Below the pieces are notes generated by a model, which was not told the DNA's origin, did no database searches, and worked only from the letters and a program-made list of their open reading frames with translations. 64,000 nt of DNA from Granulicella sp. L46. Its GTDB lineage: Bacteria; Acidobacteriota; Terriglobia; Terriglobales; Acidobacteriaceae. The DNA lies in contig NZ_LMUT01000003.1 of NCBI RefSeq assembly GCF_009765785.1, positions 607,570 through 671,569 on the forward strand. Direction: 5' to 3'. The stretch's first letter is position 1, and each line of letters begins with the position of its first letter. The translations under genes and the position numbers were made by a program. Shown here piece by piece: positions 37,978 to 43,719 of this stretch.

Positions 37978-39313
37978 TTACGACGCCATCCTGCGAGGCA
38001 TCAACGCTATGCTTTCGAGACCCTTCCCCACAGCGCAGCTTCTTCCTTCCGTGCCGTCTTCAGGAGTCAGGGACTGCCGAGCCTGATCGCGGAATTCGTT
38101 GATCCCGATAAAAAATTCGCGCATCATCACGACAAAAAGATACTTCCCCCTGGTCGTCAATCGGATCACCGCAGAATCTGAAAAATCCAAGGCTCCATTC
38201 ACCGTAAAGTAGGACAACTCCATAGCGAGTCCAAGCTCAACCGGCACCCCGAACCGGTCACGAAATTGCCTTCGGTCCAGCCCGGAGCCGAACAAATCCA
38301 TCAAAAAATGGTAACGCATCTGATTATGGTGACTATACGATTTCGATCCCATCACCGGCCTCCGCCCACCCTGAATTTTCTTCTGTATAGCTCTTCAACG
38401 AAAAAGTGTTGACGTAGATGGTCCCATCCAAATAACTGAATGCCCCTGAGCCGATGCCGACGTACTCCTCCGTATCCACGATGTATTCATCGATTAAGCT
38501 GCCATTTTTGCGGGAAAACGCCCAACCAGTCGTTTGTTCAAACTCTCCAGCCATCTTTTCCAGGATCAACTGATAATCCTCGTACTCGCAATCGTAAGTA
38601 ACAACGCCGACAGTTTGTTTCAGCGACTTCACGACCGACGATGGGCTCATCAATGGATAAAACGTGATCTGATTCGCGCCCGACCCCGACGCCAACTCGA
38701 TATCCCTCAGCAGCACCTCTCTCGTTTGACCAGGAAAATTAAAGATGATGTCCACGTTCAGCGATTGAAACATTCCCTCTACGCTATGAATTCTTTTTAA
38801 TATCTGCTCGCCGTCCCCGAAGCGCTCCAACCGGCTCACTTTATGAAGTAGCGCGTTATCAAAACTCTGGACCCCAACCGACATCCGCTGAACTCTTCCC
38901 GCCAATCTCTCAGCCAGGGCTGGCTCCAATTGATTGGGATTGGTCTCACAAGAGATATCTGTAATTCCAAAGAGTTCTTTAGCCAGATCAATTGTCGTTA
39001 TCAATTCATCCAGCAGAATCGTGGGCGTCCCTCCGCCAAAATACAAAGACTGGAACTTGTAACCCAATGCGGCCGTCATGCGCATCTCATCGCGCAAGCT
39101 TACAAAGTAAGTTCTCGCTGCCGGCTCCTTATAAGCGAAGCGGTTGAATGAACAATACGGACACAGAACATCACAGAACGGTATATGGATATACAGCATG
39201 TAGCGTCGATCTAGCTTTGGACCAGGCAGGCTGGTTGCGCCGCTTTTCTCCAGTTGAAATGCATCTCGAGTGACAAACCGAAGCAGTGGCGTAAGAATTT
39301 TTTCCGATAGCAT
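37978..39313 (-). pseudogene. HemN-like radical-SAM gene interrupted by a frameshift
   Basis: Two overlapping frames together make one HemN/HemW-type protein of about 440 residues. The first (39313 to 38333) has IPFCDVLCPYCSFNR (CxxxCxxC), the GGGTPT motif, NPNQL and VGVQSFD, and runs to NTFSLKSYTEEN. The second (38355 to 37978) supplies the expected C-terminal domain: MGSKSYS, QMRYHFLMDLFG and VVMMREFFIGINEFRD. In the second frame the codons just before ATG 38355 read RRPVMGSK, the usual continuation, so the shift of one base lies between about 38355 and 38392, in the run GGGTGGGCGGAGG or nearby. It could be a mutation, a sequencing error or recoding. The intact family binds 4Fe-4S and S-adenosylmethionine. 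Confidence 0.8.
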
Positions 39314-39710: not shown

Positions 39711-41294
39711 ATGAACTACCCAATCTGGGACGTATCCTTTGGCGCAGGTTTACTCATAGCGCTCGTAGCCGGACTCCACGTCTTCGTCTCCCACTTCGCC
39801 GTCGGCGGCGGCCTCTTCCTTGTCCTCACCGAGCGCAAGGCCATCAAGAACCACGACCACGCCCTGCTCAATTGGCTTAAGGCCCACACCAAATTCTTCG
39901 TCCTTCTCACCGTCGTCTACGGAGCGGTCAGCGGCGTCGGCATCTGGTTCACCATCGGCCTCATCTCCCCCACCGCCACCAGCGACCTCATTCACATCTT
40001 CGTCTGGGGCTGGGCCATCGAGTGGGTTTTCTTCTTCGTCGAAATCACCGCCGCCCTTCTCTACCTCGCCGGCTGGGACAAGCTAAGCCCCAAACTCCAC
40101 CAGTGGTACGGCTGGATCTACTTTTGGGCCGCCTTCGCAAGCCTCGTCGTCATCAACGGCATCATCACCTTCATGCTCACGCCGGGCAGCTGGCTCGACG
40201 TCCACAAGTTCTGGATCGGCTTCTTCAACCCCACCTACTGGCCATCCCTCTTCTTCCGCAGCGCCATCTGCATCGCCCTCGCCGGCATCTACGCCCTCAT
40301 CACCGCAAGCGTCCTGAAGGACAAAGACCTCAAAGCCCGCATCGTCCGCTGGGGCGCTCTCTGGACCATCCCATCCCTACTCGCCCTCATACCCTTCGGC
40401 TATTGGTACATCCGCGAAGTCCCCGCCGCGCTCTTCCTCAGCGCCCGCGGCCTCATGCCCACCGCCACCCACTACGCCTTCCTCGCGTGGAGCCTCCTCG
40501 CCGTCACCTTCATCCTGATGCTGCTCGCCCTCTTCACCCCGCGCCGCATGCACCTCGTCTTCGCTCTTGTCATCGGCCTCGTCGCCCTCGGTGCGATGGA
40601 CTCCTTCGAGTTCGTCCGTGAAGACGTCCGCAAGCCCTTCGTCATCGAAAACTACCTCTACGACAACTCGCTCTACGCCGCTGCCATGCCCGGCGACGGC
40701 GGCTTCACCGTCGACAACCTCAACACAGTCGGCGTCCTCCACTCCGCCGCCTGGATCGACCAACGCACCATCACCGCCGAAAACCAAATCGCCGTAGGCC
40801 ACGAGATCTTCCGTGTCGAATGCCAGGCCTGCCACACCGCCAACAGCTACCGAGGCATCCATCAACTCCTCGAGCAGCGACAGTGGGATCCCACCACCAC
40901 CCGCGCCATGCTCAGCGGTCTCGCCCTCATGCACAACGGAGTCATGCCACCCTTCGCCGGCACCGACCCCGAACGCGACGCACTAGCCGCCTACCTCAAC
41001 ACTCTCCAGACCATCACGCCCACACCCGCCACCGACGGCAAACTGATCTACCAGAACAACTGTTCCATGTGCCACCAGGATCATCCCAACGACCAGTTCT
41101 TCACCAGCATCGTCACCGACCCCAAGGCCGCCGCTGACTCCTTCAAGGACCTCACCAGCATCTTCCCCCTCATGCCCGACATCAAGTTGAACGAGCCCCA
41201 GCGCACCGCCCTCGTCCAGTACCTCAACACCCAGCGCCCACCCGCCCAGCACGCCCAGAATCAACCCAGCCCCGCAGCCGAAGGAGGCAAATAA
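39711..41294 (+). CDS. Cytochrome bd-like oxidase subunit I with two c-type haem sites
   Basis: The 527-residue product has about nine membrane helices followed by a periplasmic domain. The first helix carries LHVFVSHFAVGGG, aligning with the CydA high-spin haem His region. The segment AIEWVFFFVEITAALLYLAGWD aligns with the CydA proton-path glutamates and GWD. The position of the low-spin haem His (PRFVH in CydA) reads PSLFFR, so that ligand seems absent. C-terminal CQACH (Cys371) and CSMCH (Cys451) are covalent haem-c sites not found in quinol-type CydA. This fits a cytochrome-c-linked branch of the bd superfamily. The partner gene starts two bases later. Confidence 0.82.
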   Translation: MNYPIWDVSFGAGLLIALVAGLHVFVSHFAVGGGLFLVLTERKAIKNHDHALLNWLKAHTKFFVLLTVVYGAVSGVGIWFTIGLISPTATSDLIHIFVWGWAIEWVFFFVEITAALLYLAGWDKLSPKLHQWYGWIYFWAAFASLVVINGIITFMLTPGSWLDVHKFWIGFFNPTYWPSLFFRSAICIALAGIYALITASVLKDKDLKARIVRWGALWTIPSLLALIPFGYWYIREVPAALFLSARGLMPTATHYAFLAWSLLAVTFILMLLALFTPRRMHLVFALVIGLVALGAMDSFEFVREDVRKPFVIENYLYDNSLYAAAMPGDGGFTVDNLNTVGVLHSAAWIDQRTITAENQIAVGHEIFRVECQACHTANSYRGIHQLLEQRQWDPTTTRAMLSGLALMHNGVMPPFAGTDPERDALAAYLNTLQTITPTPATDGKLIYQNNCSMCHQDHPNDQFFTSIVTDPKAAADSFKDLTSIFPLMPDIKLNEPQRTALVQYLNTQRPPAQHAQNQPSPAAEGGK

Positions 41295-41295
41295 C

Positions 41296-42468
41296 ATGAT
41301 CGACCCCAGCATCGTTCCCATCGTCGACCCCAATCCGCTCCCCGCTCCCTACTGGCTCTTCAAGCTGCTGCTGCTCGTCACCTTCACCCTGCACATCATC
41401 GCGATGAACTTCATGCTCGGCGGTGCCTTCCTCGCCGTAGTCGCCCGCTTCACCTCAAAGGGAAAAGAGTTTCGCAACCGCATCTTCCTCGACCTAGCCA
41501 AGAAAGTTCCCGTCTTCCTCGCGGCCACGATCACGATTGGCATCGCGCCGCTACTCTTCGTACAGGCCATCTACGGCCAGTACTTCTACACCTCGACCAT
41601 CCTCATCGCCTGGCCCTGGTTCCTAATACTGGTCCTCCTCTGCATCGCCTACTACGGCTTCTACTACGTCGTCTACAACGGCCAGCGCCGCCCCGGTCCC
41701 GCCGGCATCGTCCTTCTCGTCAGCCTCACGTTCGTCCTAATCGTCGGCTTCATCCAATCCAACAACGTCACCCTGATGCAGACCCCGGCCCACTGGGCAG
41801 CCAAGTACTTCGCCTCCCCCACCGGCTGGAGCAACAACCTCTCGGACCCCACGCTAATCCCGCGCTACCTGCACTTCGTCACCTCCGCGATCGCCGTCGG
41901 CGGCATGCTTCTTGTGCTCCTCGCACTGGCCCGCTGGAAGAGCGATCGTGAGTACGCCACTTACCTCTTCCAGTACGGCGGCAAGTCCTTCATGTACGCC
42001 ACCATGGCCCAGTTCATTATCGGCACCTGGTTCCTCGTCACCATTCCACGCAACCTCCGCATGATCTTCATGGGCGACAACCCGCTCGCCTCGGTACTTT
42101 TCATCATCGGCATTCTCGGCACCATCGCCGCCATCTTCCTCATGTCCAACGCCATCCGAAAGCAGAACATCCGCGTCGCCGCTTACGGTGTCTCAGGGCT
42201 CCTCGCCGTGGTCATCATCACCATGATCATCATGCGCGACATCCTGCGCGACGCCTATCTCGAACCCTACTTCCACCCCCACCAATTCGCCGTGAAAACC
42301 CAATGGGCAGTCCTGCCAGTCTTCCTCGTACTCTTCCTCGCCGGCGTCGGCCTCTGGCTTCTCATGCTCAAGCGCTACGGCCTCTTCAGCGGCAACAAGC
42401 CTCCTCTAGCTGACACTACCCCAACGGCAAACGCGGCAGCCGAAACCGAAGTCGAGCTAGTCCACTAA
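41296..42468 (+). CDS. Cytochrome bd-like oxidase subunit II (CydA-related)
   Basis: The 390-residue product has about nine membrane helices and is separated from the first subunit by one base. It looks like a second CydA-type chain rather than CydB: LHIIAMNFMLGGAFL in the first helix matches the subunit I motif, and DPTLIPRYLHFVTSAIAVGGM matches the CydA segment carrying the low-spin haem His. Conversely, the glutamates and GWD of subunit I are missing (WPWFLILVLLCIAYYGF). Ligands thus appear divided between two related chains, as proposed for CydAA'-type enzymes. It ends in an acidic tail before a bidirectional terminator. Confidence 0.78.
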   Translation: MIDPSIVPIVDPNPLPAPYWLFKLLLLVTFTLHIIAMNFMLGGAFLAVVARFTSKGKEFRNRIFLDLAKKVPVFLAATITIGIAPLLFVQAIYGQYFYTSTILIAWPWFLILVLLCIAYYGFYYVVYNGQRRPGPAGIVLLVSLTFVLIVGFIQSNNVTLMQTPAHWAAKYFASPTGWSNNLSDPTLIPRYLHFVTSAIAVGGMLLVLLALARWKSDREYATYLFQYGGKSFMYATMAQFIIGTWFLVTIPRNLRMIFMGDNPLASVLFIIGILGTIAAIFLMSNAIRKQNIRVAAYGVSGLLAVVIITMIIMRDILRDAYLEPYFHPHQFAVKTQWAVLPVFLVLFLAGVGLWLLMLKRYGLFSGNKPPLADTTPTANAAAETEVELVH

Positions 42469-42534: not shown

Positions 42535-43719
42535 TCAGGCAAATCGTCCAATCCCAATCCCAATCACGTACGTCACGACGCCCTCCAGCAGTCCAACAAA
42601 CGTCATCTCCAGCCCACTACTCCACCACGACCGAATCGTAATCAGCGACTTCGCCGCGCCCACCGCAAAGTGCGCCAGCAGCGAAACAATCGCCGCCACC
42701 AAAATCGCCGGATATCCCGCCAGGAAGAAAAACGGAATCACCGGCACCAGCGCACCCACCGCCGTCGACAACGCAGCCGTCGTGGCCGACACCCAAGGTT
42801 TGCTCAATCCCTCTTCACTCACATGCAGCCGCTCCCTCGCCAGCGCCTCCACCAGCTGCTCTTTCTTCTCCGCAATGTGTCCCACAAAATGGTCCGCATC
42901 TTCAGCCGACAGCCCCCGCACCTGGTACGTCAGCGACAGCAACTCTCGCGCCTCAGCCTCGTTGTTCTCCACCGCATCCCGCTCGCGTGCAAACTCCGCC
43001 TCATAAATTTCGCGCTCACTCTTCGCCGCCAAATACGCGCCCGACCCCATCGAGAGTGCGCTAGCAAACATTCCTGCCAGCCCCGCAATCAGCACAAACT
43101 TGCTGTTCCCCAGCGTCGCTCCCGACACGCCCGACACAATCCCGAAGATCGCGCCCAACCCATCATTCACGCCGTAGATTGCATCACCAATCCAGCTCGC
43201 GGCCCGCGGTTGACCCTTCTCGCGCTCGGCCACCAGCTCATCCAGCGCCTGCTGCGCCGCCTCCGGCCCCAGCGGCTCAGCCGGCAGATGATGACGAATC
43301 AACCCACCCAGCGTAAGGTAGTGATCCGCCTCATCCGAAATCACCTCTTTCAGAATCGCAATGCTCTCCTCATCGCCCAGCTCGCGAATCTGTTTTCCAT
43401 AGCGCGCAATATCGCGACTCTCGTCCAGCTCCAGTCGCCGCAGTGCAAGATCCTGTCCGCCCACCCTCGTTGCCAGCGATCCAGCCTCACCCGACTCCGG
43501 CCCGTCGTATTTTGGGATCGCAGCACCCAGCACCGTCAGCCGCGTCGCCCACAGATCCGCATGGTGTTTCTCCGCCAGCGCCAGGTTGCGCAGCGTCCGC
43601 CGCCGCTGCAAGTCGCTCTCCTGGTCAGACAGTGCCTGATACGTGTGAAATCCCCGCATCTCCGCCTGCCAGTTGCTGGCCAGCGCTTCAATTAAATGTG
43701 CAGCGTCCTTGCTATTCAT
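42535..43719 (-). CDS. mbfA: Ferritin-like/VIT1 fusion, MbfA-type iron exporter
   Basis: The 394-residue product fuses an N-terminal ferritin-like (rubrerythrin) four-helix domain to a C-terminal CCC1/VIT1 membrane domain. The ferritin part has the Glu and ExxH pattern in AEMRGFHTYQAL, LALAEKHHADLW, LELDESRDIARY and VISDEADHYLTLGG. The VIT domain has GDAIYGVNDGLGAIFGIVSGVSGA, MGSGAYLAAKSEREI and five hydrophobic segments. This architecture is that of MbfA, which exports iron and protects against peroxide in alphaproteobacteria. Iron regulation is expected, but I see no clear Fur or Irr box. Confidence 0.88.
   Translation of the reverse strand: MNSKDAAHLIEALASNWQAEMRGFHTYQALSDQESDLQRRRTLRNLALAEKHHADLWATRLTVLGAAIPKYDGPESGEAGSLATRVGGQDLALRRLELDESRDIARYGKQIRELGDEESIAILKEVISDEADHYLTLGGLIRHHLPAEPLGPEAAQQALDELVAEREKGQPRAASWIGDAIYGVNDGLGAIFGIVSGVSGATLGNSKFVLIAGLAGMFASALSMGSGAYLAAKSEREIYEAEFARERDAVENNEAEARELLSLTYQVRGLSAEDADHFVGHIAEKKEQLVEALARERLHVSEEGLSKPWVSATTAALSTAVGALVPVIPFFFLAGYPAILVAAIVSLLAHFAVGAAKSLITIRSWWSSGLEMTFVGLLEGVVTYVIGIGIGRFA

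Follow-up and report, generated by a model that had tools for sequence, protein, structure and literature searches.

Two adjacent genes of Granulicella sp. L46, lying within a 64,000-nucleotide stretch of its genome (referred to below as the window), encode a pair of membrane proteins, here called chain I and chain II, both related to the CydA chain of cytochrome bd oxidases. An earlier sequence-only reading had described them as a two-chain relative of cytochrome bd, with the haem ligands split between the chains and c-type haems fused to one of them. Both open reading frames (ORFs) were confirmed, on the + strand and with 1 base between them. The analysis draws on sequence, gene order and single-chain structure models. 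The ligand register was taken from profile alignments and from a joint alignment with Escherichia coli CydA and five further CydA sequences. Conservation was counted after rows of >=95% identity and short rows had been removed, which kept 129 of 136 rows for chain I and 114 of 123 for chain II. The genes and the residues discussed are listed here, with the counts in brackets.

39711..41294, + strand: chain I, 527 aa; CydA-like catalytic chain with 8 predicted transmembrane (TM) helices, then two C-terminal c-type cytochrome domains
39777..39779, + strand: H23 of chain I, aligned with E. coli CydA H19 (125/126)
40020..40043, + strand: E104 and E111 of chain I, aligned with E. coli E99 and E107 (128/129 and 127/129)
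40254..40259, + strand: F182-R183 of chain I; the column of the low-spin haem His, here F/L/I/V/A/M/S/T, then an invariant Arg (129/129)
40608..40631, + strand: E300, R303, E304 and R307 of chain I, at the end of TM8 (129/129, 129/129, 127/129 and 129/129)
40821..40946, + strand: first c-haem of chain I; CQACH at 371-375, with Met412 the likely axial ligand; cytochrome c6-like fold
41061..41075, + strand: second c-haem motif of chain I, CSMCH at 451-455, from sequence
41296..42468, + strand: chain II, 390 aa; second CydA-fold chain, 9 predicted TM helices
41392..41394, + strand: H33 of chain II, aligned with E. coli CydA H19 (112/112)
41863..41874, + strand: R190 and H193 of chain II, H193 aligned with the E. 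coli low-spin ligand H186 (113/114 and 111/114)
42223..42249, + strand: M310, R314, D315 and R318 of chain II (110/113; 111/112; D61/H38/E6 and others; 111/112)

Chain I matches PF01654 (Cyt_bd_oxida_I, E=1.9e-11) in Pfam over residues 15-231, together with cytochrome c domains. Chain II gave zero matches to Pfam and NCBIfam at E<=1, and 96 of its relatives gave isolated one-member weak matches, the best being 0.0055 (Pfam) and 4.9e-4 (NCBIfam); these aside, the membrane core of chain II falls in no family of either database. The AlphaFold2 single-chain models have predicted local distance difference test (pLDDT) scores of 93.8 for chain I (alignment of 100 sequences) and 93.6 for chain II (96 sequences). 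Compared by VIA-align with ten CydA chains of bd oxidases, the chain I model superimposes with Z 29.9-32.6 over 307-316 residues at 2.7-3.1 Å, within residues 4-321, and the chain II model matches CydA chains with Z 26.3-30.3 over 342-351 residues at 3.2-3.9 Å. The next-best matches, at Z 15-19, are membrane chains of alternative complex III and polysulfide reductase. In both models the loop between helices 6 and 7 has only 13-14 residues, so that the Q-loop is absent from both chains, and in the profile alignments against CydA neither chain has a stretch aligned to it.

According to excerpts of PMC6853902, H186 and M393 are the ligands of the low-spin haem b558 in E. coli CydA, and E99 and E445 lie beside haems d and b595. 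In chain I the dihaem site of helices 1-4 is present (counterparts of H19, E99 and E107), and so are the E445 ligand, with which E304 is aligned, and a GRQPW-like motif at the end of helix 8, in which P309 is found in 129/129 rows. The paired glutamates claimed for this subunit thus fall on E. coli E99 and E107. They are seven residues apart, the Leu101-type insertion of E. coli being absent; it is to this insertion that the displaced Glu99 of E. coli is ascribed (same excerpts of PMC6853902). The GWD motif noted earlier varies within the family (Trp at residue 122 in 94/129 rows, Asp at residue 123 in 51/129), and the helix-1 motif said to be shared is indeed common to both chains, but with the spacing LH-x5-F-x2-GG and not x4.

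The low-spin haem is where chain I departs from CydA. F182 is aligned with E. coli H186, and R183 follows it; the register at F182 comes from the joint alignment, in which N173-R183 runs without a gap. The alignment places no His at residues 181-184 in any of the 129 rows, in agreement with the claim that subunit I lacks this ligand. R183 and E300, both invariant, sit one residue from the two low-spin ligand columns, which suggests an ion pair instead of a haem; this pair probably fills the place of the haem and closes the pocket between helices 5 and 8.

A fused c-haem is found in every one of the 129 chain I rows. The residues of the first CXXCH (C371, C374 and H375) are present in 129/129 and M412 in 127/127, and the first c domain has a cytochrome c6-like fold (Z 8.2 over 76 residues by VIA-align). 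Both c-haem motifs of the sequence-only reading are thus in place; two CXXCH motifs occur in 70 of the 136 chain I rows. It is worth adding that in Desulfobulbaceae and some others chain I has eight CXXCH motifs, in ORFs of 843-880 aa with the gene order II-I (L145, L166, L167, L170, L171, L172, L176, L177 and L179; L173, which is cut off, shows six). The one such row scanned, L145, contains an MtrC/MtrF-like stretch (PF22113, E=1.2e-8), and by its sequence the eight-CXXCH form reads as a bd core fused to a multihaem wire.

Chain II shows the complementary pattern, and with R183 and the first CXXCH in 129/129 rows and H193 in 111/114 this pattern is not a chance one. It carries the low-spin His, as had been claimed, and none of its 114 rows has Glu in columns 111 and 118, which are aligned to E104 and E111. 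D315 is aligned with E. coli E445, in a column of D/H/E after which the Arg is retained. M310 is aligned in the joint alignment with E. coli G440 and with chain I F299, the neighbour of E300. In the model H193 is in helix 5 and M310 in helix 8, the helices which we take to line the b558 pocket of CydA, so that one low-spin haem may be held by both residues.

This was followed in 131 rows (129 chain II rows and two unlinked ones), some of them from operons, here called bc-type, in which genes for a Rieske protein and a cytochrome b lie between those for chains II and I. H193 is present in 115/131, and M310 in 114 of those 115, with one gap. The 16 rows without H193 are 13 of the 14 bc-type rows and those of G092, G041 and G068 (the G092 sequence has masked letters near the H193 position); the remaining bc-type genome, G265, keeps both H193 and M310. 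Since M310 is also absent in 14 of these 16, it is likely the partner ligand of H193. A first count (110 with both, 7 with neither, 1 gap) had H193 and M310 always kept or lost together, a rule broken in the wider set by two genomes with only the Met. Fisher values for H193/M310 and for bc disregard kinship and carry no evidential weight here. Chain II, too, has a cytochrome c domain at its end (PF00034/PF13442) in rows from a distant subgroup of the window's phylum (L082:1603-2922 and L085:3914-5206).

The two chains travel together. The 136 chain I rows include some genomes twice, and 8 end within 264 bases of the end of the locus or contig, which leaves 128 with room for a neighbour. In 127 of these 128 chain II is in the same co-directional cluster: 119 have it within 200 bases on the same strand, seven have it on the same strand across the Rieske/cytochrome b pair, and one, the first chain I copy of a tandem pair in L158, has a single chain II after the second copy (L158:5001-8729). 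The one other row is from G041, where chain II is on another contig; its relative G068 is alike. Mirror-tree distances for chain I and chain II correlate with r=0.828 over 112 pairs (maximum 0.106 in 1000 permutations), part of which is accounted for by shared species history.

The two-chain arrangement with complementary ligands is widespread. In a draw of 297 genomes from the window's phylum, 104 match chain I at E<=0.001, of which 67 are strong (E<=1.3e-32) and 37 weak (E>=2.2e-11); canonical CydA and OR-N-like proteins are among the latter. In a search of 84,980 species genomes, a relative is encoded in at least 577 of at least 588 candidate stretches. Read from the titles of the best 80 stretches among the matches listed, the carriers are Acidobacteriota, Thermodesulfobacteriota, Myxococcota, Zixiibacteriota, Armatimonadota, Calditrichota, Ignavibacteriota, Verrucomicrobiota and others. 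Within the window's own family chain I is patchy (19/150 genomes), and residues 1-330 of chain I found no relative among viral contigs.

The bc-type operons, with the order II-Rieske-cytochrome b-I, occur in 14 genomes of the window's phylum. Pfam confirmed the Rieske protein (PF00355, 5e-14 to 2e-12) and cytochrome b (PF00033, 5e-48 to 1e-39) in five of them, and profiles built from those five find both in all 14. The ligands, R183, one CXXCH and M412 are retained in chain I of all 14. In the gaps between the operon genes no CXXCH-bearing open frame was found in any of the 14 genomes; three operons (G426, G192 and G443) have unexplained gaps of about 450-560 bases. Given the Rieske and cytochrome b genes between the pair and the lack of a CXXCH frame in the gaps, the chain I c-haem would be the natural receiver of the Rieske electrons. 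Of the evidence on where electrons enter, the gene order of these operons is the strongest, and it points to that c-haem. In a tree of chain II made by a quick method (75 rows, with 7 of the 14 bc-type genomes among them), six of the bc-type rows group together with support, apart from G265, and the haem loss would thus represent a small number of events. In the 13 bc-type operons and three other genomes without H193 the chain II gene is nevertheless kept. Chain II must therefore do something else too, the simplest guess being that of a CydB-like structural partner. Judging from its ligands, the chain II haem can apparently be dropped, and the split low-spin haem is not obligatory. Chain I H28 was also considered as a residue tracking the chain II haem, and was dropped: L063, L055 and L158 have Gln there with no bc operon in view.

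These results are read here as describing a heterodimeric, cytochrome c-fed O2 reductase of the cytochrome bd superfamily, to which we assign a probability of about 0.6. Electrons would enter at the periplasmic C-terminal c-haems of chain I and reach two high-spin haems in the same chain, in its first four helices and helix 8 (H23, E104 and E304). O2 would be reduced there, with protons arriving from the cytoplasm via the E111 route, as in CydA, where E107 is the proton route in E. coli. Chain II would take the place of CydB, and in most members would add a low-spin b haem between H193 and M310, which would either relay electrons from the c-haems or collect electrons from quinol; the loss of this haem from members with a bc complex in the operon agrees as well with collection as with relay. 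Of the obligate heterodimer proposed earlier from complementary loss, the joint travel of the chains and the complementarity of their ligands stand, but the obligatory split haem does not, there being 16 rows without H193. The proposal that the donor is cytochrome c rather than quinol is favoured by the invariant c-haem, the missing Q-loop and the Rieske/cytochrome b genes of 14 genomes, although the chain II b haem could face the quinol pool.

Several observations weigh against a cytochrome c-fed O2 reductase of this design. One chain I row, L086 (L086:2814-4340), is without H23, E104 and E111 in the alignment and keeps R183 and the c-haem; it is possibly a non-catalytic member which has lost the site. 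G388 and G447 keep M310 without H193. Helix 7 of chain II has no conserved Met or His where E. coli has M393 (columns 262 and 266-271), and the proposed Met ligand, M310, comes from a different helix than M393; the lack of a conserved M393 counterpart lowered our confidence slightly, from 0.62 to 0.60. The loss of H193 in bc-type members implies that the haem of chain II is dispensable for transfer from c-haem to active site. Beside the pair, no donor gene was seen to recur outside the bc-type operons: among 74 co-directional neighbours compared with Pfam, no family occurs in more than three. These 74 are from a total of 95, the omitted ones being the bc-operon genes and chain II fragments of L053, L058, L061, L066, L068 and L069, an ORF over chain II (L045), three from L129, which covers the genome stretch of L042, and single ones from L137 and L169. 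In the open-licence papers searched, no characterisation of such a two-chain c-fused enzyme was found.

An alternative is that chain II is the quinol side, its H193/M310 haem acting like b558, and that the two-gene form is a quinol oxidase or a link in either direction between quinol and the periplasmic c-haem; in the bc-type operons the bc complex would then have taken over quinol oxidation, and the chain II haem would have been lost. H193 is at the position of the b558 ligand, and it is absent in 13/14 Rieske/cytochrome b operons as compared with 3/117 other rows, as expected if the haem was replaced. However, the six H193-less bc-type rows in the tree are one clade and so may represent one event, G265 has the bc operon and yet keeps both ligands, and G092, G041 and G068 have no H193 although no bc genes were seen beside chain II. 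Neither chain has a Q-loop or a stretch aligned to it, and the two-gene forms also have the c-haem without exception, with up to eight c-haems fused. We regard this alternative as unlikely.

It is decidedly unlikely that the enzyme is not an O2 reductase at all, the dihaem site serving instead for nitric oxide (NO) reduction, peroxide removal, or only electron transfer between the c-haems and another pool. Three genes for haem-copper oxidase subunit I are already present in the window genome, and by their titles the carriers include Desulfobulbaceae, Geobacter and Desulfuromusa, which are groups of anaerobes. Anaerobes nevertheless use bd oxidases against O2 (also in excerpts of PMC10564751), and the CydA active-site residues H19, E99, E107 and E445 all have near-invariant counterparts. 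A third possibility, that the pair is an ordinary CydAB with chain II a CydB that has diverged, we consider very improbable. In Foldseek the chain II model matches the CydB chain 9r2g_D (TMt 0.70) as well as the CydA chain 9r2g_A (0.69), and this search alone did not separate the two; the VIA-align tables list one chain per entry, so that CydB rows are not visible there. On profile evidence chain II as CydB is rejected: chain II scores 1.2e-7 against CydA, with H193 on H186, and 3.1e-13 against chain I, as compared with E 0.024 and 2% probability against a CydB profile of 3 sequences, and its near-invariant H33 and H193 align with CydA H19 and H186.

The bd oxidases of known structure among the structure-search matches are CydAB enzymes, which use quinol. 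Chain I resembles canonical CydA (qOR) in its fold and in its counterparts of H19, E99, E107, E445, R448 and P450. It differs in lacking the low-spin His and in its fused c-haems, and the pair differs from CydAB in the missing Q-loop and in that the partner is a second CydA-type chain, not CydB. In the archaeal CydAA' of Caldivirga two CydA paralogues form one quinol oxidase with no fused c-haem; the feature of two CydA paralogues encoded together is present here also, whereas chain I has a fused c-haem and is bacterial. Murali, Gennis and Hemp (2021) reportedly classify the superfamily into qOR, OR-C and OR-N, with OR-C said to be a branch without a quinol site and associated with haem c, which we take to be the likely home of the pair. 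There is a risk that the pair is an already known OR-C member. Excerpts of three papers name OR-C, as a subfamily (PMC13189123), in passing (PMC10839748) and as a hidden Markov model (HMM) profile (PMC11707229).

For Nitrospirota and Nitrospinota the literature describes bd-like proteins that lack quinol sites, and CydAA' pairs presumed to be fed by cytochrome c (excerpts of PMC10839748, PMC6606698, PMC3578206 and PMC12342949). Our pair is like the OR-N CydAA' in having no Q-loop, in having two CydA-type chains proposed to pair, and in a proposed cytochrome c donor (excerpts of PMC10839748, PMC3578206 and PMC12342949); OR-N5 pairs are placed downstream of alternative complex III (excerpt of PMC12342949). 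The long OR-N proteins have 14 helices in one chain, three of them replacing the Q-loop (excerpt of PMC3578206), in contrast to the 8 and 9 predicted here. The window's phylum also encodes CydA relatives of about 560-660 aa with no CXXCH, which have His-Arg at columns 182/183 and lack Glu in the E99 column (such as L087, L088, L089, L097 and L098). They are probably of the OR-N kind, a label of our own. In a joint tree the chain I, chain II, qOR-like and OR-N-like rows form one group each, and the long branches of chain II and the OR-N-like rows meet, a caution against reading their order from it.

In the window genome (5.48 Mb; nearest named relatives, at 84-85% identity, 'Acidobacteria bacterium' and 'Granulicella sp.') there is no CydB (PF02322) at E<=1, either adjoining the pair, as noted earlier, or elsewhere, and no other CydA-family match. 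Chains I and II are thus the sole bd-superfamily enzyme found there and, beside three haem-copper oxidase subunit I genes above cut-off, would be an accessory oxidase. Across the window's family CydB is found in 100/150 genomes and in 13/19 of those with chain I, which is no association (Fisher p=1, assuming that both 150-genome draws are identical). For five acidobacterial strains caa3, cbb3 and CydAB enzymes have been described, with no mention of a c-fused pair in the excerpts of that study (PMC8407424). The pair in the window has no Rieske or cytochrome b genes adjoining. Its flanking genes, both on the opposite strand, offer no functional link to it:

38333-39313, - strand: radical SAM protein (PF04055), divergent from chain I; looks HemN-like
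42535-43719, - strand: VIT-family transporter (VIT1/rubrerythrin gene), facing the pair; weak N-terminal rubrerythrin match, below the Pfam cut-off

Our broader account is tentative, at somewhat less than even odds: that the bd superfamily made its own cytochrome c oxidase by moving the low-spin haem to a second, as yet unnamed CydA-type chain, and that in Acidobacteriota this enzyme functionally joined the Rieske protein and cytochrome b as a quinol:O2 super-oxidase, the chain I c-haem replacing cytochrome c1 and the moved haem then being discarded. The set of sequences analysed yields clean predictions, namely which haem belongs to which chain, the two residues that hold the low-spin haem, and natural members without that haem. 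Because neither Pfam nor NCBIfam has a family for the membrane core of chain II, the enzyme probably appears in many genomes as a lone 'subunit I' beside an unnamed protein. If this branch of the bd superfamily is fed by cytochrome c, then a bc complex would sit upstream of it, and the energy balance to be expected from a 'bd oxidase' gene would change.

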